Source: an uncultured Clostridium sp. (GTDB taxonomy: Bacteria > Bacillota > Clostridia > Lachnospirales > Lachnospiraceae). From it: a stretch of 25,002 nucleotides of DNA. Where the stretch lies: positions 1 to 25,002 of the forward strand of contig URFM01000051.1 in the NCBI GenBank assembly GCA_900547035.1, given 5' to 3'. The notes beneath the pieces are model-generated. The model was not told the origin of the DNA. It saw only the letters and a list, made by a program, of their open reading frames with translations, and did no database searches. Both the position numbers and the translations under genes were made by a program. Positions 2,736 to 25,002 of the stretch are shown here, in pieces (position 1 is the first letter of the stretch; every line of letters starts with the position of its first letter).

Positions 2736-2736
2736 A

Positions 2737-8168: not shown

Positions 8169-8176
8169 CCGCATTT

Positions 8177-9379: not shown

Positions 9380-9509
9380 AAGCGTCACCTCCAATCGTTT
9401 TGAAATAGCCCTCTACTATATATGGCATGAGAAAGGCTGAATTGTTCCAATGTTCCCAAAATTTTTTGAAAAAATCTCGGAATGGATGGGATAGGATGAT
9501 TATGGCTAC

Positions 9510-9538: not shown

Positions 9539-9562
9539 TTGCTTCCACGCACAAGCAAAAAA

Positions 9563-9598: not shown

Positions 9599-9647
9599 CT
9601 CGTTTACCAACCCCGTCTGACAGATGCCATAATCGAAATTTCTGGAA

Positions 9648-9730
9648 TTACTTTCTTATGAGCACCCGTCCGAATACGGGCAGCTTTTTAAGTTTTGCCA
9701 AAAATCCCCGAGTTTTGCCAAAAACTTGTA
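9648..9730 (-). pseudogene. possible C-terminal remnant of a truncated element gene
   Basis: A minus-strand frame ending at TAA 9650-9648 reads RGFLAKLKKLPVFGRVLIRK at its end, a basic, natural-looking C terminus. The strong minus-strand terminator at 9598-9563 follows it by 50 bases, as expected after a real gene. Upstream the frame runs into the promoter and start region of the divergent DUF1292 gene, so any homology must stop near 9725-9730. The frame also contains the near-palindromic repeats at 9691-9724, which could have a different origin. I do not recognise the protein; the call rests on the terminator and peptide character. Confidence 0.35.
9691..9724. repeat. two copies of AGTTTTGCCAAAAA, 20-bp period (possible operator)
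   Basis: AGTTTTGCCAAAAA occurs at 9691-9704 and 9711-9724. The core TTTTGCCAAAA is a palindrome around a central C (TTTTG/CAAAA). A 20-bp period places both copies on the same helix face, as expected for a dimeric regulator binding twice. They end about 64 bases before the first gene of the T4SS operon, next to weak promoter-like boxes (TTGTAT near 9727, TAAAGT near 9750). Confidence 0.5.
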
Positions 9731-9787
9731 TTGCCGGAAGGCGGCTGATAAAGTAAATGTAGAGAGAGGATGAATGGAGGTGTAAGT

Positions 9788-10201
9788 ATGCCCGGGGAGG
9801 AATCTCTGCGATTGATCCTTGAAGACGAAACAGGAGAAGAGCAGGAGTATGAACTGATCGGTACCTTTGCTTTTGAGGACCGGGATTATATGGGACTCCT
9901 TCCGGTGGAAAAGCCAGAAGAGGGAGTGCTTATTCTGGGCTTCCATCCGGGTAAGGAGGATGAGATTCTTCTGGATCCGATTGAGGACGAGGAGGAGTAT
10001 CAGAGAGCGGCAGAGGCTTTTGAAGATATTTTTAATCAAAGAATCCCGATGGATACCTTTGAGGAGCAGGAAGAATTTGAAACCGGGGAGTTTGAACCGG
10101 AGGAGTTCGAACCAGAGGAGTTTGAACTGGAAGATTTCGATGAAGAATTCGATATAGAAGAAATTGAAAACGAGACAATAGAAGAAAAGGGGAATGAATA
10201 A
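9788..10201 (+). CDS. DUF1292 family acidic protein (137 aa)
   Basis: First gene of the T4SS operon. Start taken at ATG 9788 (MPGEESLRLILEDETGEE) because GGAGGTG lies seven bases upstream; an ATG 18 bases earlier overlaps that site. Residues 5-85 fit the DUF1292 (YrzB-like) pattern: a small beta-strand domain with EYELIGTFAFEDRDYMGLLP, then DEILLDPIEDEEEYQRAAEAF. The last 50 residues are an extremely acidic tail of tandem five-residue units (EFEPEEFEPEEFELEDF) encoded by a 15-bp DNA repeat. DUF1292 proteins are small cytoplasmic Firmicutes proteins of unknown function; the acidic tail suggests nucleic-acid mimicry or binding of a basic partner, which is inference. Its stop overlaps the next start by one base (TAATG). 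Confidence 0.8.
   Translation: MPGEESLRLILEDETGEEQEYELIGTFAFEDRDYMGLLPVEKPEEGVLILGFHPGKEDEILLDPIEDEEEYQRAAEAFEDIFNQRIPMDTFEEQEEFETGEFEPEEFEPEEFELEDFDEEFDIEEIENETIEEKGNE
10073..10147 (+). repeat. 15-bp tandem repeat coding EFEPE units
   Basis: About five degenerate copies of GAGTTTGAACCGGAG are tiled in frame: near 10073-10087, then 10088-10102, 10103-10117, 10118-10132 and 10133-10147. Third-position differences between copies show some age. The unit count sets the length of the acidic tail of the DUF1292 protein, so copy-number variation between strains is expected. Confidence 0.75.
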
Positions 10202-10485
10202 TGAGTGAAGCAACTGTATACCAAACACCAGCAAGAATCGATGCCTCCAGCGCGCCGGCAGTGGATCAGGAGATTAAGGATCTGATTGCCGGAGGAGTTT
10301 TGGATCTTCAGATTGATATGTCAAGGACGATTTACATAAGCTCTGTGGGACTTCGGGTAATCCTGGCAACTAAAAAAAGCCTGGATGCCAAGAAAGGAAA
10401 ACTGGTTTTAAAACAGGTCTGCCCTCAGGTAAAGGAGATTTTTGACGTTACCGGTTTTTCGGGATTCCTGATGATGGAGGACTAG
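10201..10485 (+). CDS. STAS domain protein, anti-anti-sigma (SpoIIAA/RsbV) type (94 aa)
   Basis: Single STAS domain over the whole length. The phosphorylation loop reads IDMSRTIYISSVGLRVILAT; S47 or S48 in ISSVGL matches the DSSGL serine of SpoIIAA/RsbV, although the usual Asp just before is replaced by Ile or Ser. Such proteins bind RsbW/SpoIIAB-like anti-sigma kinases when unphosphorylated and so release a sigma factor. No kinase, phosphatase or sigma factor is in the window, so the partner must lie elsewhere, or was separated by the element on the left. Placement at the head of a secretion operon suggests regulated assembly; that is inference. The start ATG 10201 shares one base with the preceding stop, and a purine-rich AAGGGG precedes it. 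Confidence 0.88.
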   Translation: MSEATVYQTPARIDASSAPAVDQEIKDLIAGGVLDLQIDMSRTIYISSVGLRVILATKKSLDAKKGKLVLKQVCPQVKEIFDVTGFSGFLMMED

Positions 10486-10486
10486 A

Positions 10487-11323
10487 ATGAAGACGGAATG
10501 GACGGTCCAGCAGAGACTCTGGATTTGGGGAAGGACCTTCCTGAAAGCCATGGTGCCGCTGGCTCTCTATATTTTGATGCCGGCGCTGTGCTTGTCTCTG
10601 GGCTATGTGCTTTTCCATTCGGAGATGTCCGCTCAGGATTTTTTTACATATGGCGGTAATTTTTATTCCGCAGTGGGGATGGTGCTGACGGTTTTGGTGC
10701 TTTTTTGGAGGAGCAAGTCCAAAAATCACAGTTTTTTTGAGGACACCACCCTTTATTTTGATCAGATGAACGTCCGCAAGGCGGGAGCCTTTCTGGTGTT
10801 CGGAATGTCGGCGGCTCTGGCTTTTTCGGCGGCCCTTACTCTGCTTCCAAGGTGGGGGATTACGGAGGCTTATACCCGTGCATCCGGCACAATGTTTAAC
10901 GGACAGGATATGTTTTTCACTATTTTGACTACGGTGATTACTGCGCCTCTGGCAGAGGAAATTATTTTTCGGGGATATATGCTGAATATCTTTCTGGAAA
11001 CTTTTGAGGAGCGGAAGGCGATTTGGATTGTAAGCCTGATTTTTGCCGTTTGTCATGGTCAGGCGCTGTGGATTCTTTATGCCCTTGTGATGGGACTGGC
11101 CCTGGCTTGGGTATCAGTCCGGGAGGACAATATTTTATATGGATTTTTTCTCCATGTCGGATTTAACCTGCCTTCCGCTTTAATCTGGCTTGCTGAGAGC
11201 TTTGAGGGTACAAGAGAGCTGTTTTTTGGAAGCGATTGGATGATCGCAGCTTACGGCCTCATTGGCCTGCTCCTCAGCATTTTGCTGATTCGCCGGTACC
11301 TGGAAGGGGAGAAAAAGAACTGA
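10487..11323 (+). CDS. CPBP family intramembrane metalloprotease (CAAX/Abi type, 278 aa)
   Basis: Polytopic membrane protein with about seven or eight hydrophobic segments. The three CPBP motifs are present: EEIIFRGY with E157, E158 and R162; FAVCHGQ with H190; and HVGFN with H223 and N227. These are the catalytic and metal-site residues of Rce1-like intramembrane proteases. Relatives in Firmicutes act in bacteriocin self-immunity, peptide maturation or regulated intramembrane proteolysis. Here GGAGG lies six bases before ATG 10487, and the gene sits between a STAS protein and the T4SS genes. It might process an anti-sigma factor, a membrane component or a secreted peptide; no substrate is visible in the window. 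Family assignment is firm, the role is inference. Confidence 0.9.
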   Translation: MKTEWTVQQRLWIWGRTFLKAMVPLALYILMPALCLSLGYVLFHSEMSAQDFFTYGGNFYSAVGMVLTVLVLFWRSKSKNHSFFEDTTLYFDQMNVRKAGAFLVFGMSAALAFSAALTLLPRWGITEAYTRASGTMFNGQDMFFTILTTVITAPLAEEIIFRGYMLNIFLETFEERKAIWIVSLIFAVCHGQALWILYALVMGLALAWVSVREDNILYGFFLHVGFNLPSALIWLAESFEGTRELFFGSDWMIAAYGLIGLLLSILLIRRYLEGEKKN

Positions 11324-11356
11324 AAATAGTTGCTGCTGAAATAAGGAGGAGACGGG

Positions 11357-12562
11357 GTGGCATCGCTTTTTGATTACATATTTAATAGAAAAATGAAAAG
11401 CGCACCTGTTTCTCCGGAGGAGAAGCCGGGAGGAGATGAGTTGTGGAAGAGAGAACCGGAGCCGGTTTTAAGGGCGGACCAAATGGAAGCCCTTTCCCAG
11501 AGGGGGGTCCGCAGCGGACTTCGCAGGAGCGCCGAAGAAAGCCTGAGAGGCTGCAATTTGAGCCAGACGGAAACAGACTTTGGAAAGGTGGTTCTTCCGG
11601 AGGGGGGCGCAAACAGCAGTCTTCTTTTTATGAATAACCCGGAGGTTCGGGATACTTTAAAGGCCATGTATGAGCGGAATATCTCTGAGACGGAACCGAG
11701 AAGGTTTGAGGATCTGTTCAGTTCGGACAGCAAGGAAGACAGGAGAAGGATTGCGTCTGCCCTGTCAGGTATGCTGCTGGAGTTTGACCGGCAGAAGGTT
11801 CCGGCTATTGAGTTTACGGATGAGAACAGTATTCGTCAGGGAGTACCGACCTTGCTGCGCAGAGGCTTTGAGGCCATGGTGCTGACGAAAAGCGTTCAGG
11901 GAGAACTGAGAGATCAGGTGAATACCTGGATTTCTCTGGAAACCGGGGAGGAGAAGAGCGAGGCACAGGCCCGGTGGAGGCGGTTGGATGTGCTGACCGG
12001 AGCCAGAAACGCAGCTCTGGACATCTGCCGTTATTTTTCCACAGATGAATTTGAAACAGGGGATCTTCCACAAACGGGAGATGAGAAAATGAGGAGGCTT
12101 CTGGTAAATTGTGCCTGCTCTCTTCATTATGTAAATGATTCTTCCTATAAAGGCGTGGAGGAAAAACCCCTGATCCAGGTGAGCCGGGAACAGGCGTCTT
12201 ATATACGGAGGGGCGGAGATTACCGGGCATTTTACGACGCCGCAAGCGAAGAACTCTCCGCGTTTTTGAAAGGGGAGTCGGCAGGAGTGACCGTTCGCCA
12301 CAGACCGGACTATCTGGTTTCATGGGAAGCTGTCCGAAAGGAACGAATGGAGCGCGGGGAGAGAGCCCCTGTGAAAGTAACCTTGTCGGATCTGCAGAAG
12401 CAGGAGATGGGCAAAGACAGTGAGAGGAGCAGAGGATATGAAATGGATCAAAAAGGCAGGACTTTACGCTCTGGCAGGGCTGGCCTCGGTTATGGTGCTG
12501 GGAAGCATGACGGGGATGCTGCTGGGAAGTCTCGGCAGCGTGATGGAGGGAGACGGCTTTAA
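11357..12562 (+). CDS. T4SS-operon protein of unknown function (up to 401 aa)
   Basis: GTG start at 11357, with AAGGAGGA six bases upstream. The protein is soluble, charged and mostly helical. It has a disordered N terminus (about 1-70, Pro/Glu/Arg-rich) and a globular part of about 75-330 (for example RRFEDLFSSDSKEDRRRIAS and RRLLVNCACSLHYVNDSSYK). I recognise no domain; no signal peptide, membrane segment or ATPase motif is visible. The position directly before the coupling ATPase suggests a cytoplasmic partner such as a substrate adaptor or chaperone; this is inference. The last 42 residues are Gly/Arg-rich and come from 125 bases that also encode, in another frame, the start of VirD4. The true C terminus may therefore be nearer residue 360, if a frameshift or lost stop has extended it. 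Confidence 0.65.
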   Translation: MASLFDYIFNRKMKSAPVSPEEKPGGDELWKREPEPVLRADQMEALSQRGVRSGLRRSAEESLRGCNLSQTETDFGKVVLPEGGANSSLLFMNNPEVRDTLKAMYERNISETEPRRFEDLFSSDSKEDRRRIASALSGMLLEFDRQKVPAIEFTDENSIRQGVPTLLRRGFEAMVLTKSVQGELRDQVNTWISLETGEEKSEAQARWRRLDVLTGARNAALDICRYFSTDEFETGDLPQTGDEKMRRLLVNCACSLHYVNDSSYKGVEEKPLIQVSREQASYIRRGGDYRAFYDAASEELSAFLKGESAGVTVRHRPDYLVSWEAVRKERMERGERAPVKVTLSDLQKQEMGKDSERSRGYEMDQKGRTLRSGRAGLGYGAGKHDGDAAGKSRQRDGGRRL

Positions 12563-14459
12563 GGTCAGTTTTAACCTGGGGCTGATTCTGAATCCTGCTA
12601 CCTGGCTGACAGGCGTGGTGGAAACGGCCCTGATTGTTTTGCTGTTTCTCCTTTTTGGCAGCAGCACAGCAAGAGCCTCCAAACGTATGCTGAAAAGCAA
12701 GGCCCAGCGTATCGAGGGAGCGCTGGAGAATTCCAGGTTTATGAATGATAAGGAGAAGGATGAGCTGTTCCCTCACAAGCGTTTTACAAAGCTGAAGGAG
12801 GAAAAGAAGGACGGAATTCCCATGTATGCGGTGTACAGCCACAAGAAGAAGGAACTGGACATCAATCTTTCCGCCCCGGCCCACGGCCTGATTATCGGCG
12901 CTACCGGAAGCGGAAAAACTACCACGTTCATCAATCCGGTCATTCAGATTCTGGGACATACCAGCGCCGGTTCTTCCATGATTTGTACAGACCCAAAGGG
13001 CGAGCTGTTTCAGCTTCATTCCAAATTTTTAAAGGAACAGGGCTACCAGGTGATGGTTTTGGATTTGAGGGACCCCTACAGCTCTTTCCGCTGGAATCCT
13101 CTCGGAGATATCTATGACCGTTATCAGCTTTACCTTCAGACCGGCAACGAAATCTATGAGCGGACAGATCAGGCAGATCCGGAAGAGTTGGAGCTAGTGA
13201 ATCGGCCGGAAGAGTATGGTGATGTTTGGTATGAGTACGCAGGAAAGGCTTACGCCTCCAGAAGAGAACTGATCAACAAAGTTAAGATTGAAAAACAGAA
13301 GATTTACGATGAACTCTACGAGGATTTAAATGACTTGATCAGCGTTATCTGCCCCATTGAGTCCAAGGATGATCCGGTATGGGAGAAGGGGGCCAGGTCT
13401 ATTATTATGGCTACTTGTCTGGCTATGCTGGAGGACAGCGAGAATCCGGAACTGGAGATGACACGGGAAAAGTTCTGTTTCTACAATATCAATAAAGCGA
13501 TCAGCAATTCAGAGAATGAGTTTGCCGCGTTGAAAGACTATTTTAAAGGAAGGCCCAAGCTTTCGAAGGCGGTAGGACTGTCCCGCCAGGTGCTGTCGGC
13601 AGCGGATCAGACTCTTTCCAGCTATATGTCCATTGCCTTTGACAAGCTTTCTATGTTTAACGACGAAGGCCTGTGCGCCCTGACCTCTGCCACGGATATT
13701 GAGCCGGAGCGCTTCGCCTCAGAGCCTACGGCACTGTTCTTAAAGATACCGGATGAGAAAGACACCAGACATGCTCTGGCCGCGGTTTTTATCCTGTGCA
13801 TCTATAAGGCGCTGATCAAGGTGGCTTCGGCAAGAGAGGATTTGTCCCTTCCCAGAAACGTATATTTCCTGTTGGATGAATTCGGAAATATGCCGAAAAT
13901 TGATAAGTTTGACAAGATGATTACAGTAGGCCGCAGCCGTAAAATCTGGTTCCATATGGTGGTTCAGTCCTATGCTCAGCTGAATAATGTGTATGGGGAT
14001 ACGGTGGCGGATATTGTAAAGAGCAACTGCGGAATCAAGATGTTTATTGGTTCCAACGATATCGCTACCTGCGAGGAGTTTTCCAAACTTTGCGGCAATA
14101 TGTCCGTGGCAACTACCAGCGTCTCCTCGTCCACTCACGATACCAGCGGACAGATCAACTACTCCAGCCAGATACAGGACCGTCCTCTGATTTATCCGTC
14201 GGAGCTGATGAAGCTGAACAACAAGAAGGATACGGGCAATGCCATTATCGTGACATTTGGAAACTATCCCTTAAAAACAAAGTTTACCCCCAGCTACAAG
14301 TGTCCCCTGTATGAGTTCGGCACTATGGATCTGACGGATGTAAGGAGCAATGCTTTCTTTGGAGACGAGGTATTTTACGATCTGGACGAGCGCAACTACC
14401 TGGTGCTGGATACCGGGGAAGAGGCAGTGAACGGAGAGATGACCGAAGGAGAAGTATGA
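12438..14459 (+). CDS. VirD4/TraG type IV coupling protein ATPase (673 aa)
   Basis: Hexameric inner-membrane ATPase that delivers substrates to a type IV secretion channel. Start at ATG 12438 (MKWIKKAGLYALAG), eight bases after AGGAG. Two N-terminal membrane helices (about 8-35 and 57-75) precede the cytoplasmic motor. Walker A is GATGSGKT 154-161; CTDPKGELF at about 183-191 follows; Walker B is LLDEFGN 478-484; and the VGRSRKIWFHMVVQSYAQL segment 497-515 is the classic TraG/VirD4 motif. Length is normal for Firmicutes coupling proteins. It contacts the VirB4-like ATPase in this operon by analogy. No relaxase is encoded beside it, so its natural substrate is open; it might also serve the neighbouring mobilizable element. 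The stop overlaps the next gene as ATGA. Confidence 0.95.
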   Translation: MKWIKKAGLYALAGLASVMVLGSMTGMLLGSLGSVMEGDGFKVSFNLGLILNPATWLTGVVETALIVLLFLLFGSSTARASKRMLKSKAQRIEGALENSRFMNDKEKDELFPHKRFTKLKEEKKDGIPMYAVYSHKKKELDINLSAPAHGLIIGATGSGKTTTFINPVIQILGHTSAGSSMICTDPKGELFQLHSKFLKEQGYQVMVLDLRDPYSSFRWNPLGDIYDRYQLYLQTGNEIYERTDQADPEELELVNRPEEYGDVWYEYAGKAYASRRELINKVKIEKQKIYDELYEDLNDLISVICPIESKDDPVWEKGARSIIMATCLAMLEDSENPELEMTREKFCFYNINKAISNSENEFAALKDYFKGRPKLSKAVGLSRQVLSAADQTLSSYMSIAFDKLSMFNDEGLCALTSATDIEPERFASEPTALFLKIPDEKDTRHALAAVFILCIYKALIKVASAREDLSLPRNVYFLLDEFGNMPKIDKFDKMITVGRSRKIWFHMVVQSYAQLNNVYGDTVADIVKSNCGIKMFIGSNDIATCEEFSKLCGNMSVATTSVSSSTHDTSGQINYSSQIQDRPLIYPSELMKLNNKKDTGNAIIVTFGNYPLKTKFTPSYKCPLYEFGTMDLTDVRSNAFFGDEVFYDLDERNYLVLDTGEEAVNGEMTEGEV

Positions 14460-16180
14460 AGATGAAACAGAAACGATGGATCAGACAGACGGCTGTTGCC
14501 GCAGCTTTGGGAATTGTCCTGACAGGACCGGCAGCAATGGCAGGGAATTTGGGACAGATTCTGGGGGCGGAGACCTCTCTTTATGAACGGATTGTCAATG
14601 CCCAGGGAGGTCTGACTTCCACAGTGGTGGATGAACGGCATTATACCGCATACCAGTCCGAAGATGGGAGCGAGGAGCGCAGTGAAAGCCGGATAGTCCG
14701 GGAGGAGGACCGCACTACAGGACCGGGAGCGGCTGCAAAGGTAGAGATTGTAGAAGATGAGGAGACGGAGGGGCCTCAGGTAGAGGAGGTTAGTTTGTCT
14801 GAGCGCTACCACGAGGACTATGGCGTTTATGAGGAAGGTATGGGAAACCGGTATTTCCTCTATGCCACAGTGGAAAACGGCGGTATTACGGACCAGCCGG
14901 TCAGCGTAGACATACCGGCAGGACTTACCTTCGTAATGGAGAAGGATGGAGTACAGATTCCTTATTCCAGTGGGCAGACGGTCAGTGAGCGGGGATCCTA
15001 TATGCTGACCTTGACCGGGCCAAATGACTCATCTCTTCCGTTCTCAGAGCAAACCATCTATAAATCGGTATTCCGGTTCCGGATTCAGGAAAAGCTTCCG
15101 GTGGCGGATGAAGAGGCAGCGGAAGCCTTTGCTCCGGGGATCCCTTCTTCGACCCAGGCCGCGGCGGAGACCGTTCCGGAGACAGAAGAAGCTCCTCAGG
15201 AGGAAACAGAGTCTGAAAGCATGGAGGCGGCGGATGAAAGCGCTCCGGCAGAGGTGTTTAACGAAGACGGTTCTGTAAATGAGGAGGCTCTGGATCAAAG
15301 CCTGGAGGAAATTGTGGGCGCCGGAGAAAGCAGAATTGATATGAGCATCTTCAGCCAGGCTTCCGGGCTTGCCTCCCAATATGACGCAGCTGCCGGACTT
15401 TTTAAGAATCATCTGCTGACAGGCGCTGCTTTCTACACCAATGTACCCAATGGAATGGTGACCAACAGCGGGGTAAGACTTCAGACCACAGATGAGATCG
15501 ATTTTCAGGTGTTTTTAAACGGGGAGCTTCTGGAGTATGAGACGGGTACGACATTTGACCAGCCGGGAAGCTATATGATCTATCCTTCCCAGAATACATC
15601 GGTTTATCTTGGGGAGTATGGAGACCGTTCAAAGCCGGTATTCCATTTTCGGATTGTAACCGGCCCCATCCGGGATATGGGCATTTTCAATGCACCTCAG
15701 GATTATCGGATAAAAGAGATAACCTTGGACGGAGAGCCGCTGACGGAGGGAATTTCCCAGGATGGAGGCTGGTGCTATTTGGCGCAGGATGGGGAATATG
15801 AAATTCGCCTTGAACACAAGAGCGGAATGACGCCGGACTTGAATACTTCCTTTATAAGAGACAGCATTCAGCCCAGGTTCCTGATGAGCGTACAGGACAG
15901 CACCGCCTATTTCCAGTATCAGTCTCAGGATATTGCTTACTGCCTGCTGTACAGGGACGGGGAGCTGATTTCAGACAGCCAGATTCCCGCCCAGATATCG
16001 GGAAGCGGCACTTACCGGCTGGAGGCCTATGATGAAGCGGGAAATATGGCCTACGGGGAATTCCAGATTGACTATCACTTTAACACTGGGGCGATCGTGG
16101 TGATCGTGCTGGTAATTGCGCTGATTGTGGCGCTGGTATTGTTTTTGCGGAGGGCCAGAAAGCAGGTTCGCGTTCGGTAG
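14456..16180 (+). CDS. exported Ig-like single-pass surface protein A (574 aa)
   Basis: An N-terminal signal peptide (basic MKMKQKRWIRQ, then a hydrophobic core to about residue 29) is followed by repeated beta-rich Ig-like units. Each unit carries a dG pair and a GSY/GTY turn (for example ERGSYMLTLTG, FDQPGSYMIYP, GSGTYRLEAYDEAGN). An acidic Pro/Glu/Ala-rich linker occupies about 215-290. One transmembrane helix lies at about 546-564, with the basic tail LRRARKQVRVR inside. It therefore sits outside the membrane, anchored at the C terminus. It is paralogous to the protein encoded at 23668-24909, sharing the unit order and the NAP...DGxY...AGN end region. By position it could be the extracellular part of the secretion apparatus or an adhesin; not recognised as a named family. 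Translation is coupled to VirD4 by ATGA. Confidence 0.75.
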   Translation: MKMKQKRWIRQTAVAAALGIVLTGPAAMAGNLGQILGAETSLYERIVNAQGGLTSTVVDERHYTAYQSEDGSEERSESRIVREEDRTTGPGAAAKVEIVEDEETEGPQVEEVSLSERYHEDYGVYEEGMGNRYFLYATVENGGITDQPVSVDIPAGLTFVMEKDGVQIPYSSGQTVSERGSYMLTLTGPNDSSLPFSEQTIYKSVFRFRIQEKLPVADEEAAEAFAPGIPSSTQAAAETVPETEEAPQEETESESMEAADESAPAEVFNEDGSVNEEALDQSLEEIVGAGESRIDMSIFSQASGLASQYDAAAGLFKNHLLTGAAFYTNVPNGMVTNSGVRLQTTDEIDFQVFLNGELLEYETGTTFDQPGSYMIYPSQNTSVYLGEYGDRSKPVFHFRIVTGPIRDMGIFNAPQDYRIKEITLDGEPLTEGISQDGGWCYLAQDGEYEIRLEHKSGMTPDLNTSFIRDSIQPRFLMSVQDSTAYFQYQSQDIAYCLLYRDGELISDSQIPAQISGSGTYRLEAYDEAGNMAYGEFQIDYHFNTGAIVVIVLVIALIVALVLFLRRARKQVRVR

Positions 16181-16228
16181 GCCTGATGGAAAATGTTTTG
16201 CGGATATTGCGGGAGAGGAGGACACTGA

Positions 16229-17476
16229 ATGGAATATGTAAGCTTAAGCTTCACATCTCTTTTGCAGGATATACTGGGAGCGGTATTTGATGCAGTTCTG
16301 GCTCCGGTGCTGAGAGATGTGGCCAGTGTTCTGATCAATGCGGCAGGAATATTAATTCAGGAAGTACTTTCCAATTTTCTGCTGAAGCAGTGGATTATAT
16401 TTTTGAAGGCGGTTTATTTCCTGGAGTGCATTTTCGATGTCTTTTCCGGAGTCAGCCCTGTGCGGGTGGAGGATGTCAGCGAGCCTATTACCCTGATTGA
16501 ATATTTCTTCCGGATAGAGCCGGTGCAGCAGGCTTTTCTCGCCATCACTGCTATGGCAGTGGCAATATCCTTTATCACTACCATTGCCGCGGTGACGCGC
16601 TCTATGTCGGATATGTTGTGGGAGAATAAGACGCCTCTAAGCACCGTCCTGAACCAGGGCCTGAAGGCGGCAGCCAGCTTTATGCTGATTCCTATAGTTT
16701 GTCTGTTTTTTCTGCAGATGGTGACTCAGGTTACGGTGGTAATTAACAGCGCGATGGTTCAGCAGAATGCGGATACTACTATGAGTGATGTGCTCTTTAT
16801 TTCCGCGGCGGGAATGGGGGCGAAAAGCGATGAGATTCGGGAAGAATACTCCTATGGTCAGAAGTACGAGGACGCGGAACAGGTAAAAAAGGATTTTGAC
16901 ATTACGAAATTTGATTATGTGCTGGCCTACGCCAGCAGTATCCTGGTGGCCCTCCTGATGCTCTGCTCCATCCTGCAGTTTATCCAGCGGATTATTATGG
17001 TGCTGCTGCTGTTTCTAGTCAGCCCCTTCTTCGTATCGTATATGCCTTTGGATGGAGGGGCGAAGTTTAAGGAGTGGCGGGAGATGTTTGTGGCTCAGAT
17101 GATCTCCGCCTTTGGTCCAATTATCGCCATGAAGATTTATTTTCTTGTGGCGCCCACCTTGGTGGGAGGAGGAGTCAGCTATGGGGTTAACTCCTACACA
17201 GAGGCATGTATCAAGCTGTTTATTATTATCGGCGGGGCTTTCGCCGTATATAAGAGCCGCCTTCTTCTGATTTCTATAGTCAATCCTGCGGCTGCCGATT
17301 CCCTGGCTGAGAGCAGCATTATCAGCTCGTTTATTGCCGGCAGGGTGGTGGGAGTCATCGGCCAGCAGCTAAAAAGCCGCTCTTTCAAACAAAGAAGGGA
17401 GAAGAAAAGCGAATCAGGAGGCGACTCCAAGGGCGGCCAGAGCCAGATGAAGGGCCAGGCGTTTACAGGAAAGTAG
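16229..17476 (+). CDS. VirB6/TrbL-like T4SS membrane protein 1 (415 aa)
   Basis: Polytopic inner-membrane channel protein. GAGAGGAGG precedes ATG 16229. It opens with an amphipathic region of about 80 residues (SLLQDILGAVFDAVLAPVLR), then roughly five to six hydrophobic segments between about 100 and 365. A soluble loop (about 185-225, charged) sits in the middle, and the tail is basic and Gly/Ser-rich (RREKKSESGGDSKGGQSQMK). Conserved segments shared with the next protein include SEPITLIEYFFRIEPVQ, LIPIVCLFFL and SPFFVSYMPLDGGAKFKEW. The layout fits VirB6/TrbL proteins of Gram-positive T4SS. It probably forms the translocation channel with the VirB4 fusion ATPase. Family fit is from topology and context, as VirB6 proteins share little sequence. 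Confidence 0.8.
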   Translation: MEYVSLSFTSLLQDILGAVFDAVLAPVLRDVASVLINAAGILIQEVLSNFLLKQWIIFLKAVYFLECIFDVFSGVSPVRVEDVSEPITLIEYFFRIEPVQQAFLAITAMAVAISFITTIAAVTRSMSDMLWENKTPLSTVLNQGLKAAASFMLIPIVCLFFLQMVTQVTVVINSAMVQQNADTTMSDVLFISAAGMGAKSDEIREEYSYGQKYEDAEQVKKDFDITKFDYVLAYASSILVALLMLCSILQFIQRIIMVLLLFLVSPFFVSYMPLDGGAKFKEWREMFVAQMISAFGPIIAMKIYFLVAPTLVGGGVSYGVNSYTEACIKLFIIIGGAFAVYKSRLLLISIVNPAAADSLAESSIISSFIAGRVVGVIGQQLKSRSFKQRREKKSESGGDSKGGQSQMKGQAFTGK

Positions 17477-17485
17477 GTGTATGAA

Positions 17486-19708
17486 ATGGAAATAGTATAT
17501 CTGGGACTTCTTTCAACGATTTTTAACGCTATTTTTGAAGCCATTCTTTCACCTATTTTTAAGTTTATTTCCTCTTTGCTGGAAACGGTTTTGGGGTGGC
17601 TTTTCGAGAATGTGCTGGGTCCTCTGCTGGAGAATGTGCTTTGGCCTATTTTTGAAGGCGTGGTTGAGCTGGTCTTTGAAATCCTGGCTGAGATGATTTA
17701 TGGAGTTCTGGCCTCGATTCTTCAGATTGTGGACGCCATGCAGTCGGCTTTTAATATTTTTTCCGGTCTGCAGCCGGTCAGCTATGTAAATTATTCGGAA
17801 CCTCTGCCGCTGATTGAGATGCTGTTCCGAATGGATACCATACAGTGGGCGGTGATGATCGTTACGGTAATCGGCCTATGCCTCACGTTTGTGTTTGCTA
17901 TTCTGGGTACGGCCCGTTCTATGCTGGAACTGGATGTGGATAATGCCAGACCTATTTCCAGGGTGCTGCGCTCTACCGGTCAGGCGATGGTTCGTTTTGC
18001 CCTGATCCCTATTACCTGTCTGTTTTTGATTATGATGTCGGGACGGGTTTTGGAGGGAGTAGGAAGCGCCATGGGCAGCAGCGAAACCACCCTTTCCAGA
18101 ATGATCTTTGTGGTGGCCTCCCTGGATGCCAATAAGGTAGACGCGCACTACAATATCAGCGGAAAGGTGGATGACGAAGACAGTCCGGTGACGGTGGCTT
18201 CGGATATCGGGGCAGAGGATAAAATTCGGAATCCTTTTTATACCGGACAGTCCAATTATGCCGATACCGATGTGGTGGGAAGAAGCTTCGATTTTGCCAG
18301 ATTCGATTATCTTATCGGCTTTGGCGGAAGTATATTTCTGTTAATTGTAATGGCTATTTGCCTGATTAATTTTATCTGCCGGATTTTTGAGGTGTTGATG
18401 CTTTTTATTGCTTCCCCGCTTTTCGTATCTGTGATGCCTTTGGACGATGGAGAAAAATTCAAAGCCTGGCAGGATATGTTTGTGGCTAAGCTGTTCAGCG
18501 GTTTTGGAAGTGTGATTGCTATGGAGCTGTATATGCTGATTTGTCCGGTGGTAATGAGCGGAGGGATTTCCTTCATGCAGAACGGCTCAACCGAGGCGGA
18601 CTACCTGATCCGGCTGGTTTTCATGCTGGGAGGAGCATGGGCAGTGATTAAGGCTGGTCCCACCATCACTCAGCTGCTGAATTTCCAGGCTGGAGCGGCG
18701 GAACGGCAAACAGGTGCCAGCGTCACAGCAGGTCTGATGGGAGCGGCAACTACAATCGGCGGAACGGCGAAGCAGGCATTTACCGGAATCCGCGGCAGCG
18801 CTGCCGCAAGGTCGGCAGGACGCCAGTCGGCTAGGGCGGCTTCGGATGAACGGATTGCCAGGAGGCTGAACGGGCTGGAAGGCGGTCCTAGGCCGGGCGG
18901 CGGTTCTAGACCAGGTGGCGGTTCTAGACCGGGCGGAGGAACCCCGGGCGGCTCGGGAACCGGAAGCGCAGGCGGCCTGTCCGGCAGTGGAACACGGACA
19001 GCCGGTCTGCAGGGCAGGGGGCCAGGGCAGGCAAGACGTCTGGGGACCTTTGGCAAAAATGGACATATTACAGCGAATACCAGTACCGGCGGACATCGTT
19101 ATCTGGGAGTGGACTTTGGAAAGAAGCTTTCCTTTGGACGGGATCAGGCGGGCAATTTCCAGTTCCGTGTTCTTGGCGTAGGATACCGGACGGGAAAAGA
19201 CGGAAAGGTAGACAAGGTTTCTCTTCCCTTTGTGCGGTTCAAGCGCGGGGACGAGGGCTTTAAGGTATCTAAGGTGAAATTTGCCGGAGCGGTCAGCTTT
19301 AAGAGGGCGGAAACCGTGACTACCGGAGAGGATGGAACGGTTAGCCGTCAGTTCGGCGATATGTACTGCAGTGATATCAGGCCCCTTGGAATGACGGCTC
19401 TGAAGCGGCGGTATGACCAGGAAACCGGCAAAGTGGAAACGATTCAGAGAGGCGTTTCCCATTATGGCAAAAACGCTCAGGGCGAGTATGTGCTGACTAA
19501 GCGGGAAGGCCTGGGATTCAGGGCGGAGTACGAGCGCGGACAAGATGGCAAAGACCGTAAAGTACGCAGTGAAGGACTGGGTATATCCGCCAGGTATTCC
19601 TACGGCGAAGATGGTACAAAACGGATTGATAAAATAAAGCGGAATGGCGGAAATACTGCATATCGGTCCGAGGCCAAAAAGGCAGGCAAGAAGGAGAATG
19701 ATCAATGA
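17486..19708 (+). CDS. VirB6/TrbL-like T4SS membrane protein 2 with large C-terminal extension (740 aa)
   Basis: Paralogue of the preceding protein. The start at ATG 17486 (MEIVYLGLLSTIFNAIFEAI) was chosen because it aligns with MEYVSLSFTSLLQDILGAVF of protein 1 and has AGGTG six bases upstream; GTG 17477 is the alternative. Residues 1-410 follow the same plan, with FSGLQPVSYVNYSEPLPLIE, LIPITCLFL and SPLFVSVMPLDDGEKFKAW. The N terminus is lengthened by internal repeats of ENVLGPLLENVLW type. After residue 410 it differs: an Ala/Gly/Arg-rich segment, a Gly-Pro linker with three RPGGGS units (467-484), then a 200-residue soluble domain rich in Gly, aromatic and basic residues (about 525-740) with repeated GLGFRAEY / GLGISARY strands. 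That tail is not a usual VirB6 feature and I do not recognise it; it could be a substrate-binding or plug domain. Confidence 0.8.
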   Translation: MEIVYLGLLSTIFNAIFEAILSPIFKFISSLLETVLGWLFENVLGPLLENVLWPIFEGVVELVFEILAEMIYGVLASILQIVDAMQSAFNIFSGLQPVSYVNYSEPLPLIEMLFRMDTIQWAVMIVTVIGLCLTFVFAILGTARSMLELDVDNARPISRVLRSTGQAMVRFALIPITCLFLIMMSGRVLEGVGSAMGSSETTLSRMIFVVASLDANKVDAHYNISGKVDDEDSPVTVASDIGAEDKIRNPFYTGQSNYADTDVVGRSFDFARFDYLIGFGGSIFLLIVMAICLINFICRIFEVLMLFIASPLFVSVMPLDDGEKFKAWQDMFVAKLFSGFGSVIAMELYMLICPVVMSGGISFMQNGSTEADYLIRLVFMLGGAWAVIKAGPTITQLLNFQAGAAERQTGASVTAGLMGAATTIGGTAKQAFTGIRGSAAARSAGRQSARAASDERIARRLNGLEGGPRPGGGSRPGGGSRPGGGTPGGSGTGSAGGLSGSGTRTAGLQGRGPGQARRLGTFGKNGHITANTSTGGHRYLGVDFGKKLSFGRDQAGNFQFRVLGVGYRTGKDGKVDKVSLPFVRFKRGDEGFKVSKVKFAGAVSFKRAETVTTGEDGTVSRQFGDMYCSDIRPLGMTALKRRYDQETGKVETIQRGVSHYGKNAQGEYVLTKREGLGFRAEYERGQDGKDRKVRSEGLGISARYSYGEDGTKRIDKIKRNGGNTAYRSEAKKAGKKENDQ
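18884..18937 (+). repeat. three 18-bp tandem repeats coding the Gly-Pro-Arg linker
   Basis: Units at 18884-18901, 18902-18919 and 18920-18937 follow GGTTCTAGACCGGGCGGC with few differences and encode GxRPGG in frame. They lie inside the linker between the membrane part and the C-terminal domain of VirB6-like protein 2. Near-identical copies are prone to slippage, so linker length may vary between strains. Confidence 0.8.
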
Positions 19709-22488
19709 GAATCATACCAAAACGTACAAAGGTGAGGATGGAGCTCTTTAAAGGAATTGAGCTGGTGGATGTGCTGGTGGCAGGAGCCGGCATGGGGCTG
19801 AGCGCTTCCTTTCTGGTTTCAAACCTTCCGGCCCATCTGGCCTTGTCCATTGTGACGCTGATTATCACGGTAGGCCTGGTGGTTCCCATTGAGGACGATA
19901 AGGGCTATATCCTGATTTACAATGTTCTGAAATACGCGGGAAGATACAAAATCTTTTATAAACGTTCCGCGAAAGAGGCGGTTTTCAAGGAAGCAGCTTC
20001 CCGGGAGAAACAAGAGGATACAGGAAAGAAAAAGGGCCGCGGTACCAAAAAAAAGGGGCCGGTAATTTCCGGAATGTCTCTGGAGGATATTACACCCTTT
20101 ACGGAAATCGACGGAAGCTTTATCGCCTACGGCTCATCCTACAGCGCCGTGGTGATGAGCATTCCGTCCGTAGAGTTCCGCTTTTACAGCGAAAGCCGCC
20201 AGAACAGCGTGATAGACCGCTGTTTTGGCTCCATCCTGCGGACCGCTGCCAGCGATGAGGTTATCAGCATGGTAAAGCTGGACCGTCCGGTGATTTACGA
20301 CGATTTCATTCAGTCGGAGCAGGTGAAGATGGAGGATTTGAAGGAAGCTTACCTAAACGGCCTTCTGACCGACGAGGAGCTTACCATCCGGGTGGGAATC
20401 GTCCATGACCGAATCCGTCAGCTGATGGATTTTGATTATAAAAATAAGGTTTATATGCCGTTCCATTACCTCATGTTTTTCCACAAGGACCGGAATTTCC
20501 TTCAGGGACAGATTGAAAATGCCATTGCAACCTTTGCCGGAAACAATATGATTTGCCACCAGCTAAAGGGAGAGGAGCTGGCGGTATTTCTGAAATACAG
20601 CTACGGTATGGAGTTTGACGAGAGGGAGGTAAAGAACCTTTCACCGGAGGAATACATGGATTGGATTCTGCCGGATGTGGTGCGTTTTACCGGAAGGACG
20701 GTTCAGTATGACGAGCTGATAACCCACAATTTCCGTCTGAGAGATTACCCTATGGTAGTGGGAAATGCCTGGGGCAGCAGCATGTTTAATATGCTGGGAA
20801 CCCGGGTAGTGCTCAAGATGACTCCTGTGGACCGCTACAAGGCGATCCGCCAGATCGACCGTTCTATTGATGAACTGAGAGAGCAGGAGTCCAATACGGG
20901 AAAGACCAGTAAGCTGATGGAAGTATCTATGCATATCGAATCCCTCTCCGAGGTGCTGAGGCTCCTTCAGGGGGAGAACGAGGTTCTCTTTAATGTGAAC
21001 ACTTTTGTGACGGTGGACGATTACGAGCTTTCCCAGCAGCAAAAGACACCGGAGGGGAGAAAAACCAAAAATCTCACCAGCTTTAAAAAGCAGGTAAGAA
21101 GAGAGCTTTCTGAGGAAGGCTTTAAGGTAACGGATCTGTTTTTGCAGCAGTTTGAGGCTTACAGCTCCGCGCAGCTTTCCGGATACGACGCATTCAAAAA
21201 ATATCAAAGAGGAATCCAGTCCAGTTCTGTGGCGGCGGCCTTCCCCTATGTATATAAAAGTCTTTGTGACGATGGGGGAATCTATGTGGGGCAGTCATCC
21301 GGCGTTCCGGTATTTATTAATTTCTTCCAGAGAGACCGGGAGAGAGTTAACAGCAACACGGTGATTATCGGTAAGTCCGGTTCCGGAAAGTCCTACGCCA
21401 CCAAGACTATTTTGACCCAGCTGGCAGCAGAGAACAGCAAAATTTTTATTCTGGACCCGGAGAATGAGTATTCTAAGCTGGCCATGAACATGAAGGGAAA
21501 AATTATTGACGTAGGAAGCGCTACTCAGGGACGTTTAAATCCCTTCCATATCATCACGAATCTGACCGACGAGGAGGGCGACGAGGATGGAGATGAGGCG
21601 GCAGCTACCAGCTTTACCACTCATCTGCAGTTCCTGGAGGAGTTTTACCGGCAGATTCTTCCTGGCATCGACTCGGATGCCCTGGAATATCTGAACAACA
21701 TTACCATCCGTATGTACGAAGCAAAGGGCATCGACGACACAACGGATTTGAGTACCCTGACACCGGAGGATTTCCCCACTTTCGATGACCTTTACGACAA
21801 GATCCTCAATGACTTCCAGATGACCAGCGGCGAATACAGCAAGAGCAATCTGAGGGTGCTGCTAAACTACATATCCAAGTTTGCCACCGGAGGACGAAAT
21901 TCCGCTCTCTGGAACGGCGCGGCCAGCATCAGCACCAATGAAAACTTTATTGTGTTCAACTTCCAGTCACTCCTGGCCAACAAAAACAACACAATCGCCA
22001 ATGCCCAGATGCTGCTGGTGCTGAAATGGCTGGACAACGAGATTATCAAAAACCGGGATTACAACATTAAGTACAATGCCAGCCGGAAAATCGTGGTGGT
22101 TATTGATGAAGCGCATGTATTTATCGACAGCAAATATCCCATTGCCCTGGACTTTATGTATCAGCTGGCAAAGCGAATCCGAAAGTATAATGGCATGCAG
22201 ATGGTGATTACCCAGAATATTAAAGACTTTGTGGGAACGGAGGAGCTTGCCAGAAAATCAACGGCTATTATTAACGCCAGCCAGTATTCATTTATCTTTC
22301 CGCTGGCTCCTAACGATATGCAGGACCTCTGTAAGCTGTATGAGAAGGCGGGAGCCATCAATGAGAGCGAGCAGGAGGATATTGTGAACAATGGACGAGG
22401 CCGGGCCTTTGTAATTACCTCGCCGTCGGAGCGAACCTGTGTGGATATTGTGGCGGCAGAGGGAATCGAGGACCTGTTTACCATGTAA
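19705..22488 (+). CDS. VirB3/PrgI-VirB4 fusion T4SS ATPase (927 aa)
   Basis: The main energising ATPase of a type IV secretion system. The N terminus carries a short PrgI/VirB3-like module with two membrane helices (about 20-40 and 44-61), then basic residues (GKKKGRGTKKKG, 107-118). The VirB4 N-terminal domain runs from about 125 to 500. The RecA-like motor has Walker A GKSGSGKS 556-563, FILDPENEYSKLA 581-593, GRLNPF 609-614, Walker B VVVIDEAH 797-804, and the KRIRKYNGMQMVITQNIKDF segment 823-842, all characteristic of VirB4/TraE/CagE. Length is typical for the fused form. It starts in an ATGA overlap with the VirB6-like gene, so the two are coupled. All catalytic residues appear intact, so the system should be active. 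Confidence 0.95.
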   Translation: MRIIPKRTKVRMELFKGIELVDVLVAGAGMGLSASFLVSNLPAHLALSIVTLIITVGLVVPIEDDKGYILIYNVLKYAGRYKIFYKRSAKEAVFKEAASREKQEDTGKKKGRGTKKKGPVISGMSLEDITPFTEIDGSFIAYGSSYSAVVMSIPSVEFRFYSESRQNSVIDRCFGSILRTAASDEVISMVKLDRPVIYDDFIQSEQVKMEDLKEAYLNGLLTDEELTIRVGIVHDRIRQLMDFDYKNKVYMPFHYLMFFHKDRNFLQGQIENAIATFAGNNMICHQLKGEELAVFLKYSYGMEFDEREVKNLSPEEYMDWILPDVVRFTGRTVQYDELITHNFRLRDYPMVVGNAWGSSMFNMLGTRVVLKMTPVDRYKAIRQIDRSIDELREQESNTGKTSKLMEVSMHIESLSEVLRLLQGENEVLFNVNTFVTVDDYELSQQQKTPEGRKTKNLTSFKKQVRRELSEEGFKVTDLFLQQFEAYSSAQLSGYDAFKKYQRGIQSSSVAAAFPYVYKSLCDDGGIYVGQSSGVPVFINFFQRDRERVNSNTVIIGKSGSGKSYATKTILTQLAAENSKIFILDPENEYSKLAMNMKGKIIDVGSATQGRLNPFHIITNLTDEEGDEDGDEAAATSFTTHLQFLEEFYRQILPGIDSDALEYLNNITIRMYEAKGIDDTTDLSTLTPEDFPTFDDLYDKILNDFQMTSGEYSKSNLRVLLNYISKFATGGRNSALWNGAASISTNENFIVFNFQSLLANKNNTIANAQMLLVLKWLDNEIIKNRDYNIKYNASRKIVVVIDEAHVFIDSKYPIALDFMYQLAKRIRKYNGMQMVITQNIKDFVGTEELARKSTAIINASQYSFIFPLAPNDMQDLCKLYEKAGAINESEQEDIVNNGRGRAFVITSPSERTCVDIVAAEGIEDLFTM

Positions 22489-22538
22489 AAAGGCTTCTGG
22501 CCGGGAAATTAATGATTATGCAATGGAGGCAGACAGAA

Positions 22539-23345
22539 ATGAGAAAAATATGGTTAAGGTTTCTGGGACCGGCGGTTTTGGCTGCAGCGCTGCTTGCGGG
22601 CTGCTCCGGAGGCGGGGAGACCGAGAACGTGGAGAATGCCGCTGCAGATGGAGTGCTGACCGTGGGAATTCTGGCAGGGGAGGACATTTTTTCCTATACG
22701 GATGAGGCGGGACAGCTAAGAGGAGTGGAGCCTCAGCTGATGGAGCGCCTGGGAGAGAGCCTGGGTGTTTCCGTAGAGTTCGATGAGGCGGGCAGCCTGG
22801 ATGAATTATTGAACTGGTTGGACTTAGGGCAGGCAGATATTGCGTTGGGCCGTATCGCGCAGAGAGATGAGTACAATCAAAAATACCAGGTATCCAGAAA
22901 TTACGCAAAAAAGGGAATTTATCTTCTGACCAGGAAGAACGATTACACCGATACCCTGGCGGGATTGGCGGAAACCACGGTAGCCGTGGCCCCGTCAATA
23001 TCCGCGGAACTCAGAGTAGACATCCCCTATCTAGATCAGGTGGTTATGCAGGAGTATGGAAGCGTAGCGGATGCGGCGAAGGCATTGGAGGAGGAGACGG
23101 TATCTGCTGTTATTCTTACAGAGCGTGAGGCTATGGAAGAAATAGCCCAAGGCAGTTTTCAGGCTCAGGAAATGTTAAACGGGCCCAAGGAATCTTATGT
23201 GGCCTTAATGGGATCAGGCCAGCAGGAACTGGCGGCCAGTTTGAACCAGGTAATCAGCCAGTATCTGGATGAACAGGCCGGGGGCGCGGAGGAAGAAAAC
23301 CAGACAGAAGAAACCCTGCCGGCCCAGACGGGGGAGGAGGAATAG
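22539..23345 (+). CDS. solute-binding lipoprotein, family 3 type (268 aa)
   Basis: Start at ATG 22539 (MRKIWLRFLGPAVLAAALLA), with GGAGG nine bases upstream; an earlier in-frame ATG has no better site. A lipoprotein signal ends in the lipobox LLAGC (Cys near residue 23). The mature part follows the family 3 solute-binding (HisJ-like) pattern: GVLTVGILAGEDIFSYTDE, GVEPQLMERLGESLGV, then GQADIALGRIAQRDEYNQ and a second lobe (about 135-240). The C-terminal tail is Glu/Gln/Thr-rich. No permease or ATP-binding protein accompanies it, so nutrient import is unlikely to be its job here; it may sense a ligand, or serve as an extracellular part of the T4SS. The same fold is also the regulatory half of MltF-type lytic transglycosylases, but no hydrolase domain is present. 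Confidence 0.8.
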   Translation: MRKIWLRFLGPAVLAAALLAGCSGGGETENVENAAADGVLTVGILAGEDIFSYTDEAGQLRGVEPQLMERLGESLGVSVEFDEAGSLDELLNWLDLGQADIALGRIAQRDEYNQKYQVSRNYAKKGIYLLTRKNDYTDTLAGLAETTVAVAPSISAELRVDIPYLDQVVMQEYGSVADAAKALEEETVSAVILTEREAMEEIAQGSFQAQEMLNGPKESYVALMGSGQQELAASLNQVISQYLDEQAGGAEEENQTEETLPAQTGEEE

Positions 23346-23347
23346 CC

Positions 23348-23671
23348 ATGGCCTATTTTGACAGCCCTAAAAACAGAGCGATCTGGGAGCGGGAGCTAAA
23401 AGGTCTGCGCGCGGAGAAAGAGCGCCGGGCGAAGGAAGGATACCGTCCCCAGAAGGGGGAGCAGGAGATATCCGTAGAAAGCAGACAAGAGCAGAATCCC
23501 TTCCGAAAAAGAATTACTCTAAAGGAGCTGGAGCAGGCGGAACGGGAAGCGGTGCAGGCGCGAAGAGCCAGGAGGCCTCAGAGAGTGAGAGAGGCAGAGG
23601 CAAAAGAGCCAAAACGGCAGTCCTCCATAGAGCAGGAGAAGTCTTTCGGTCTGGGAGGAAAACAGCTATGA
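23348..23671 (+). CDS. small charged hypothetical protein (107 aa)
   Basis: Starts at ATG 23348, three bases after the lipoprotein stop; the preceding gene ends in GGGGGAGGAGG, giving a strong site. Highly charged and helical, with basic N-terminal (IWERELKGLRAEKERRAKEG) and Arg/Glu-rich central helices and no hydrophobic segment, so cytoplasmic and possibly coiled-coil. The stop overlaps the next gene as ATGA. No homology recognised. Its place between two exported components, and the composition, would suit an adaptor, a chaperone or even a secreted substrate; none of these can be supported directly. The translational overlaps on both sides support it being a real gene. Confidence 0.65.
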   Translation: MAYFDSPKNRAIWERELKGLRAEKERRAKEGYRPQKGEQEISVESRQEQNPFRKRITLKELEQAEREAVQARRARRPQRVREAEAKEPKRQSSIEQEKSFGLGGKQL

Positions 23672-24909
23672 GAGGGGAAAAACCGCCCGGCCTGTCAAGG
23701 ACTCTGAGCCTTTTTTTGGTCCTGTGTTTTTCCATCCTTCTTTCTATTACGGCCCAGGCAGCCCAGGAGGTGAGCTGCGTGCTGGTGGCGGAGGATGTGG
23801 GAAATGGGTACCGCTATGAGGCACCAGGAATCGGGGGATTTACTATCAACGGGCGGGAGGGGGAAACCCTGAGCGTTGGGGTGATTTCTCTGGATGAAGG
23901 ATGCGTGGCCGAGCTTTTAAAGGACGGGTACGAGGCGGATTTTAACGATGGGGTTATTCTGGAGAACGGCTCCTACGAACTTAGGATTTACCGGGAAGGA
24001 GCAGAGGATGTCTGCGGAGTATTTCGTTTCACGGTAGAAAATTCCTATGGAGATATGCTGGACTACAGCATAGAGAATCTGACCCAGGTGAATAACCCGG
24101 ATATGGAAATGACTTACGATCCTCAGACCGGACGTTTTACCTATACCCTTCCGGACGGCGAATATATTTGCGCGGAGGTACCCTTTGGAGGATGGTCCGG
24201 ACACCAGACTCAGGTGGAGGTATCAAAAAACATGAACGTATACCGGGTTTTAAAGGACGGAGAGCCTCAGGATTTTTCCGGGGGACTGGTATTCAGCCTT
24301 CCGGGAAGCTACCGCATTACCCTGTGGGACAATGAGCTGGGGCTGAACGGGGACACCAGCTACCGCGTGGATTTCTGCTTTGTCCTTTATGCCCCGGCCC
24401 CTAAGAATATTACCCATATCAATGCGCCTATGGGCTTTCAGGTCCGCTCCCTGTTATGGGAAGGCAATTCTGTGGAAGTTAAAGACAGAAGCTACGCCCA
24501 GCTGGAGCGGGACGGAACCTATGAGATCCTTTTTGAGAATCCGGAAGGAACCGTCCGCTGGCAGATGGAGCTGGAACGGGATACCACGGCTCCGGCCTTG
24601 TATTTTTCTCAGGACGTTGAGAAAGGGCAGACGTCAGAATATGTAAGCTTTACTCCCTCAGAGGGGAATGCGGATATTGAAATTCTCTGGAACGGCCAGC
24701 AGGTGGAGGCATACAGCCCGCGCCTGGCGATGGACGGCCGATACCAGCTTACTATAACCGACCAGGCCGGAAACAGCCGGCAGTACGAATTTACGCTTCG
24801 AAAAGGTTTCGAAATCCGGAGCGGATATCTGATTGTCATACCCGTATTGCTTCTTGCGGCAGCAGGAGGAACAATTTTCTACTGGCGCAGGAACATGAGG
24901 GTTTTATGA
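23668..24909 (+). CDS. exported Ig-like single-pass surface protein B (413 aa)
   Basis: A signal peptide (MRGEKPPGLSRTLSLFLVLC, cleavage likely after AQA near residue 31) is followed by four or more beta-rich Ig-like units, for example LENGSYELRIYREG, SLPGSYRITLWDNE and DGRYQLTITDQAGN. One transmembrane helix at about 387-405 precedes the basic tail YWRRNMRVL. It is paralogous to the protein encoded at 14456-16180: the shared order is FTYTLPDGEY..., LKDGEPQDFSGG, GSYRITL, INAP, DGTYEI and AGN before the membrane helix. Protein A has an extra acidic linker. The pair flanks the VirB6/VirB4 core, so both may belong to the outer part of the machine. Not recognised as a named family. The stop overlaps a 19-codon frame as ATGA. 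Confidence 0.75.
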   Translation: MRGEKPPGLSRTLSLFLVLCFSILLSITAQAAQEVSCVLVAEDVGNGYRYEAPGIGGFTINGREGETLSVGVISLDEGCVAELLKDGYEADFNDGVILENGSYELRIYREGAEDVCGVFRFTVENSYGDMLDYSIENLTQVNNPDMEMTYDPQTGRFTYTLPDGEYICAEVPFGGWSGHQTQVEVSKNMNVYRVLKDGEPQDFSGGLVFSLPGSYRITLWDNELGLNGDTSYRVDFCFVLYAPAPKNITHINAPMGFQVRSLLWEGNSVEVKDRSYAQLERDGTYEILFENPEGTVRWQMELERDTTAPALYFSQDVEKGQTSEYVSFTPSEGNADIEILWNGQQVEAYSPRLAMDGRYQLTITDQAGNSRQYEFTLRKGFEIRSGYLIVIPVLLLAAAGGTIFYWRRNMRVL

Positions 24910-25002
24910 TAATAAACCGTAACAGTTCAGAACGGCGGGAAAACAGAAGCAAAAACAGGCGTTAAGCTTGCTTATAAGCAAAGTGCCCCTTGTGGGTATG
25001 CT

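Follow-up and report, generated by a model that had tools for sequence, protein, structure and literature searches.

The window analysed here, a 25,002-nucleotide stretch of contig URFM01000051.1 from an uncultured Clostridium sp. of the Lachnospiraceae, carries a compact operon for a type IV secretion system (T4SS). It consists of 12 plus-strand open reading frames (ORFs) that start at 9770 (with an alternative in-frame ATG at 9788) and end at 24909, neighbours overlapping or lying less than 60 bases apart, in agreement with the arrangement described in the initial annotation. As judged from sequence comparison, the operon very probably encodes a chromosomal, non-conjugative T4SS. The earlier proposal that the operon encodes a hitherto undescribed T4SS without a relaxase, linked to genes of Rsb-type signalling, gains support from the loci of relatives. 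Literature searches listed no paper describing a relaxase-free Clostridia T4SS of the window's kind. The genes of the operon, with product lengths in amino acids (aa), are:

9770..10201, plus strand: DUF1292 protein with an acidic tail (PF06949, E 1.5e-13)
10201..10485, plus strand: STAS (RsbV/SpoIIAA-like) anti-sigma antagonist (PF01740, E 5.3e-14; TIGR00377, 52.2 bits, slightly below the cut-off of 53.45)
10487..11323, plus strand: CPBP (Rce1-like) intramembrane protease (PF02517, E 1.9e-19)
11357..12562, plus strand: 401-aa helical protein, adaptor or substrate candidate (no Pfam or NCBIfam match)
12420..14459, plus strand: VirD4-like coupling ATPase, with an in-frame ATG at 12441 (PF02534, E 1.5e-50; NF045973, 295 bits, cut-off 250)
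14456..16180, plus strand: 574-aa immunoglobulin (Ig)-like exported protein with, from sequence reading, a C-terminal membrane anchor and basic tail (Pfam match below cut-off only)
16229..17476, plus strand: VirB6-like membrane protein a (NF045848, 195.8 bits, cut-off 90)
17477..19708, plus strand: VirB6-like membrane protein b with a long soluble tail (NF045848, 218.4 bits, cut-off 90)
19705..22488, plus strand: VirB4 ATPase with an N-terminal VirB3-like membrane segment (PF19044, E 3.2e-20; NF045975, 539.6 bits, cut-off 590, residues 3-918)
22512..23345, plus strand: solute-binding lipoprotein, SBP_bac_3 (PF00497, E 1e-14)
23348..23671, plus strand: 107-aa conserved soluble protein with the N-terminus YFDSPKNRAIW (no Pfam match; 31 database matches)
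23668..24909, plus strand: second Ig-like anchored protein, 413 aa (no Pfam match)

Searches with Pfam and NCBIfam profiles recover in the window the VirB4, VirB6-like and VirD4 core of the monoderm conjugative T4SS (MPF-FA/FATA) and bear out the names first given to the DUF1292, STAS, CPBP, VirD4, both VirB6-like and binding lipoprotein genes; the two VirB6-like proteins also pass the cut-off of NF045889 (118 and 115 bits; cut-off 70). The VirB3-VirB4 fusion suggested earlier stands in its VirB4 part (PF19044, NF045975); the VirB3 part has no match to VirB3/PrgI profiles and is suggested by the N-terminal membrane segments and the extent of the NF045975 coverage. No VirB1-like cell-wall hydrolase domain was detected by Pfam among the 12 window proteins or the four downstream proteins of the related locus L001, and sequence profiles gave no VirB8 match among the window proteins. 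The 401-aa protein has five database matches, including one identical to the copy in the window; its predicted structure (AlphaFold2, pLDDT 68, helical) has no match in PDB at E<=0.001, and the assignment of a function through the fold was dropped for want of a usable structural match. A promoter scan of the window gave as many sites as shuffles did (13 vs 13.2), terminator-like sites number 19 vs 14.9 in shuffles, Rfam gave no match at gathering thresholds, and the window contains no tRNA gene as an anchor for integration.

Scanning of genome contigs with VirB4 identified 10 related loci (60-91% identity), all in Lachnospiraceae or Clostridia, the hosts being Enterocloster-like metagenome-assembled genomes, Hungatella effluvii and C. 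asparagiforme. The comparison of conserved neighbourhoods called for in the initial annotation shows that the gene set recurs in these relatives. Four of the loci (L002, L004, L005, L007) start at or close to virB4 or virB6; VirD4 is found in all six that extend far enough. The 107-aa protein and the second Ig-like protein occupy the same position in 10 of 10 relatives, homologues of the 574-aa Ig-like protein are located likewise in L001, L003, L006, L008, L009 and L010, and the 401-aa protein is present, among the ten, in L001 and L003 only. The STAS match is absent in L006 and the lipoprotein has no match in L008, L009 and L010, an exported protein of similar size taking its place in L008 and L009; the STAS and CPBP genes of C. 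asparagiforme and Hungatella are not at the operon front but ~8-9 kb downstream of virB4. Compared with L001 and L003, the ratio of nonsynonymous to synonymous substitution rates (dN/dS) was computable for 8 of 11 genes, where it takes values of 0.03-0.18 with dS near saturation; it was not computable for the 574-aa Ig-like protein, the lipoprotein and the 107-aa protein. The most conserved proteins are VirD4 and VirB4 (91% to L001, dN/dS ~0.04). Purifying selection across the computable genes argues for a working machine and, together with the recurrence of the gene set, indicates that the operon is not a chance assemblage.

The initial annotation allowed that the operon might be part of a larger conjugative element extending to the right. 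To the right of the edge equivalent to that of the window, the relatives instead encode a T4SS pilin, a lipoprotein of 736-1268 aa and switch genes, namely an RsbW-type HATPase or a protein that joins cyclic nucleotide monophosphate (cNMP)-binding, SpoIIE and HATPase domains. The pilin (PF18895, E 2.4e-12 in L001) is matched by homologues at 9 of 11 additional loci and starts 27-85 bp after the last shared gene in L001, L002 and L003. Since these genes are found there, and neither a relaxase (three families searched) nor a listed tyrosine integrase lies nearby, the relatives examined give no support for a larger conjugative element.

The relaxase searches covered the assemblies of 16 T4SS genomes, several of them with short T4SS contigs, and used the profiles PF03432, PF03389 and PF02486. 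In 16 of 16 genomes, no relaxase of these families lies within 300 kb on the T4SS contig, the MobV and MobF families not having been searched. Matches to PF03432 are on other contigs or at least ~350 kb away (~350 kb in G056, ~430 kb round the chromosome in G009), those to PF03389 are on other contigs or, in G008, ~330 kb away, and PF02486 has no match in the 16 genomes. The T4SS contigs of G001, G085 and G254 are 28-35 kb long, so that the flanks there are only partly visible. Among the PF00589 integrase matches listed for the 16 genomes, the nearest on the same contig are at 36 kb (G056) and 42 kb (G003), serine recombinases not having been searched. Nine other VirB4 matches in G008, G009 and G010 served as a control: a PF03432 relaxase is no more than 25 kb away from five of them, but not from the remaining four. 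A relaxase and an integrase immediately to the right, which according to the initial annotation would mark an ordinary integrative conjugative element (ICE), are thus not seen among the relatives' matches listed for the three relaxase families and PF00589, and an ordinary ICE module is rejected for these relatives. Viral contigs contain no relative of the T4SS; 1448 plasmid records match VirB4, none of them covering 80% of the query and all at less than 60% identity.

The window itself is not free of relaxases, as had been stated originally, but the single gene found belongs to a neighbouring mobilizable element rather than to the operon:

630..2084, minus strand: MobA/MobL relaxase of the neighbouring mobilizable element, outside the operon (PF03389, E 3.7e-89)

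This element also encodes helix-turn-helix (HTH) proteins, a helicase and a TnpW match below cut-off. Positions 1-9700 have no match to any of the loci compared with them. The DUF4011/MTES_1575 helicase (2737-7617, minus strand), adjoined by a Cro-like HTH gene, matches PDC-S37 of PADLOC, a candidate defence family (1482 bits), and is a candidate for phage-defence cargo of the mobilizable element.

Two genome samples show the breadth of the system. Among 397 genomes from the family of C. asparagiforme (VirB4 threshold E<=1e-200), 21 match VirB4, 9 at 57-75% identity and 12 at 50-54%. In the second of these groups (12 genomes; L032-L043), VirB4 frames measure 997-1606 aa and exceed 1,270 aa in 11 cases, vs 900 aa in the window's group; all seven of its loci examined encode VirD4, VirB6 and VirB4, six encode Ig-like proteins and six STAS, five encode the pilin and five have a strong HATPase match within 20 kb, in a gene order unlike that of the window. 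Among 391 Clostridia (threshold E<=1e-150), 14 match, nine of them in assemblies of 0.8-1.2 Mb and one in an assembly of 1.5 Mb; completeness is not given for these assemblies, so the small size may partly reflect missing sequence. In G409, G447, G502, G571, G669 and G683 (L077-L086, L089-L092), virB4 is upstream of a gene for a protein of 3,000-3,600 aa (cut by the contig end in G447). The other side of virB4 in these 0.8-1.2 Mb assemblies is flanked by uvrA-side housekeeping genes, and in the other five of the six an rpoB-like gene comes next, with rpoC seen in three (gene names assigned by eye). The conserved placement of virB4 beside housekeeping genes in these small Clostridia assemblies fits vertical inheritance. 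In the VirB4 tree (36 rows, with a midpoint-drawn root), the 26 Clostridia T4SS rows cluster as a 100/100 group, distinct from the VirB4 of ICEs and plasmids, and this group takes in Clostridia assemblies of 0.8-1.2 Mb; within it, the 11 rows of the window's kind do not strictly cluster as a single unit, and the exact position of the plasmid rows is unsure because of long branches.

The Rsb-type switch set is represented in the window by STAS, with HATPase_c_2 and SpoIIE seen in relatives only. The 16 genomes contain 26 strong HATPase_c_2 matches (>=60 bits), 11 of which are no more than 20 kb from the T4SS (0.26 expected), and STAS or a strong HATPase match is found at 13 of 16 T4SS loci. In Hungatella, a CHASE2 cyclase is encoded within the cluster of the cNMP-binding phosphatase, and a similar cyclase is present near the locus of G121. 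Going by these gene neighbourhoods, a partner switch probably controls the expression or activity of the T4SS. A putative regulatory site lies directly upstream of the first gene:

9693..9724, plus strand: twin putative operator TTTTGCCAAAAA, copies 20 bp apart

This motif has two matches in the window vs a mean of 0.37 expected, a count reached in 5 of 100 shuffles. The pair precedes the operon at equal spacing in L015/L003 (L015:15604-15634) and is found in L142 (G001) at 308-339 with unchanged spacing and one mismatch in one copy; the window included, it is present in 3 of 3 close relatives that cover the region. It was not found before the DUF1292 gene of the more distant G124, and beyond those loci the motif amounts to three single copies in ~1.55 Mb.

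The combined interpretation, a chromosomal non-conjugative T4SS that is controlled by a partner switch and in which VirD4 delivers proteins, is moderately favoured; for the nature of the substrate taken separately, protein rather than DNA has a slight edge. VirD4 and VirB4 would power a channel made of the two VirB6-like proteins, plus the pilin in relatives. The Ig-like anchored proteins and the large lipoprotein could be the surface part, replacing VirB8 and the cell-wall hydrolase. The switch would comprise the STAS antagonist, the RsbW-type kinase and the SpoIIE phosphatase, joined at some loci by a cNMP-binding domain and a neighbouring CHASE2 cyclase, and would act on expression or activity. 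Candidates for the cargo of VirD4 are the 401-aa protein, phosphatidylinositol 4-kinase (PI4-kinase)-like proteins and large soluble proteins whose genes adjoin related loci. The PI4-kinase-like proteins are found in 14 of 21 T4SS-positive genomes vs 12 of 376 T4SS-negative ones.

Several observations weigh against this interpretation. Three of the 16 loci (G006, G010, G124) have neither STAS nor a strong HATPase match, and the T4SS copies of G010 are broken (contigs C59 and C3; L010, L020), with internal stops or split frames in VirB4 that reflect decay or poor assembly. The final 93 bp of the window (24910-25002) contain no pilin start. The binding lipoprotein weakly matches a lytic transglycosylase model (MltF, NF008112, 39 bits only vs a cut-off of 354, residues 23-164), apparently within the binding domain only. 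The candidate substrates were picked by eye, and 7 of the 21 T4SS-positive genomes lack a PI4-kinase-like protein. Conversely, the T4SS VirB4 was not found in 12 genomes that have the kinase-like family (two with weak VirB4 matches of 57-67 bits, ten with none at E<=1e-10), so the family is rejected as a strict companion of the T4SS and its members are putative effectors only. In three of seven such genomes examined, the kinase-like gene adjoins the same kind of switch genes; it may therefore be an output of the switch, not cargo.

Two further features of the kinase-like family were noted. At four loci without the T4SS (L122, L125, L126, L131), its genes adjoin acetyltransferase-like genes of ~280-320 aa (by eye). 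One member, P0050, has a precomputed match to PF13699, a domain linked to extracellular contractile injection systems (eCIS), which hints at another delivery route.

The boldest extension, a dedicated protein-translocating T4SS family of commensal gut Clostridia that is inherited vertically down to ~1 Mb Clostridia, is gated by an Rsb-type switch and delivers large proteins, those of the PI4-kinase-like family among them, into adjacent cells of bacteria, protists or animals, is doubtful. Rather unlikely, too, is a surface organelle that serves attachment, uptake or sensing without injected cargo: the pilin, the two Ig-like anchored proteins, the binding lipoprotein and a protein weakly matching a choline-binding repeat would suit such a role, and the T4SS of Patescibacteria, whose role is described as still open (available parts of PMC12857230), offers a precedent, but the substrate receptor VirD4 is kept and is, along with VirB4, the most conserved protein. 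Conjugation in trans, in which relaxases of mobilizable elements elsewhere use the VirD4/VirB4 channel, is less probable still. A MobA/MobL element does adjoin the operon, and an Exiguobacterium plasmid encodes in one gene run a MobP3 relaxase, a CD1115-type VirD4, a pilin, TrbL and VirB4; however, no other locus compared shows a match to the left element, 5 of the 16 T4SS genomes (G003, G006, G085, G130, G224) have no match to any of the three relaxase profiles (MobV and MobF not searched), and PF03432 is found in 0 of 10 small Clostridia assemblies, for which completeness is not given. A remnant of a decayed ICE, to which kinship with conjugation ATPases and the broken copies in G010 might point, is highly improbable given the purifying selection in the computable genes, the same gene set across many species and the deep VirB4 group.

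Among known systems, the closest precedent for a chromosomal non-conjugative T4SS of this kind appears to be the chromosomal T4SS of Patescibacteria, likened by gene content, with no Patescibacteria VirB4 in the tree. According to the available parts of PMC12102498 and PMC12857230, these systems are likewise monoderm and mostly without a relaxase, have a VirB4/VirB6/VirD4 core and a VirB2-like pilin near virB4, and most VirB2-bearing genomes lack VirB1; a pilin (PF18895) is encoded near virB4 in relatives of the window's T4SS as well. They differ in belonging to another phylum and in the VirB8-like parts and pilin arrays reported, and those parts of the two papers do not mention an Rsb-type switch. 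Similarities also extend to the T4SS of Mycoplasma ICEs (Mbov_0396/0397 and MMCAP2_0566 families): the window's VirB6-like proteins pass both NCBIfam cut-offs, its VirB4 comes close to, but stays under, that of NF045975 (539.6 vs 590 bits), and these ICEs lack VirB1- and VirB8-like parts, as far as PMC12857230 was available. Those, however, are mobile elements of wall-less bacteria, whereas the hosts here are Clostridia with no listed integrase near and with pilin and switch genes in relatives. The window's VirD4 passes the CD1115 cut-off; unlike CD1110/CD1115-type conjugation modules, the operon has no relaxase near it, and its VirB4 is placed in the tree far from the ICE-type VirB4 encoded in the same genomes. 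The 89K T4SS of Streptococcus suis is monoderm, too, and protein export is reported for it, but it has VirB1 and VirB8 (PMC12857230, in part) and lies in a transferable island (title of PMC3132442). In Helicobacter pylori, the kinase CtkA, linked to the Tfs3 T4SS, has a fold similar to that of the PI4-kinase-like family (8-10% identical in sequence where the folds align); Tfs3 itself sits on a mobile element (PMC5536186, in part). Partner switching by BtrU/BtrV/BtrW of Bordetella (a SpoIIE phosphatase, a STAS protein and a kinase) controls a secretion machine, albeit a type III system, which is not homologous to T4SS (PMC7498569, in part).

A 2025 review describes dedicated effector translocation by Gram-positive T4SSs as a long-standing question, with S. 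suis 89K apparently the first case (PMC12857230, in part). The present locus and its relatives provide chromosomal, relaxase-free candidates for this question, two of them in the deposited strain genomes of Hungatella effluvii DSM 24995 and [Clostridium] asparagiforme DSM 15981, which makes it testable by gene deletion. Partner switching, known for the type III system of Bordetella (PMC7498569, in part), may turn out to control a T4SS as well.

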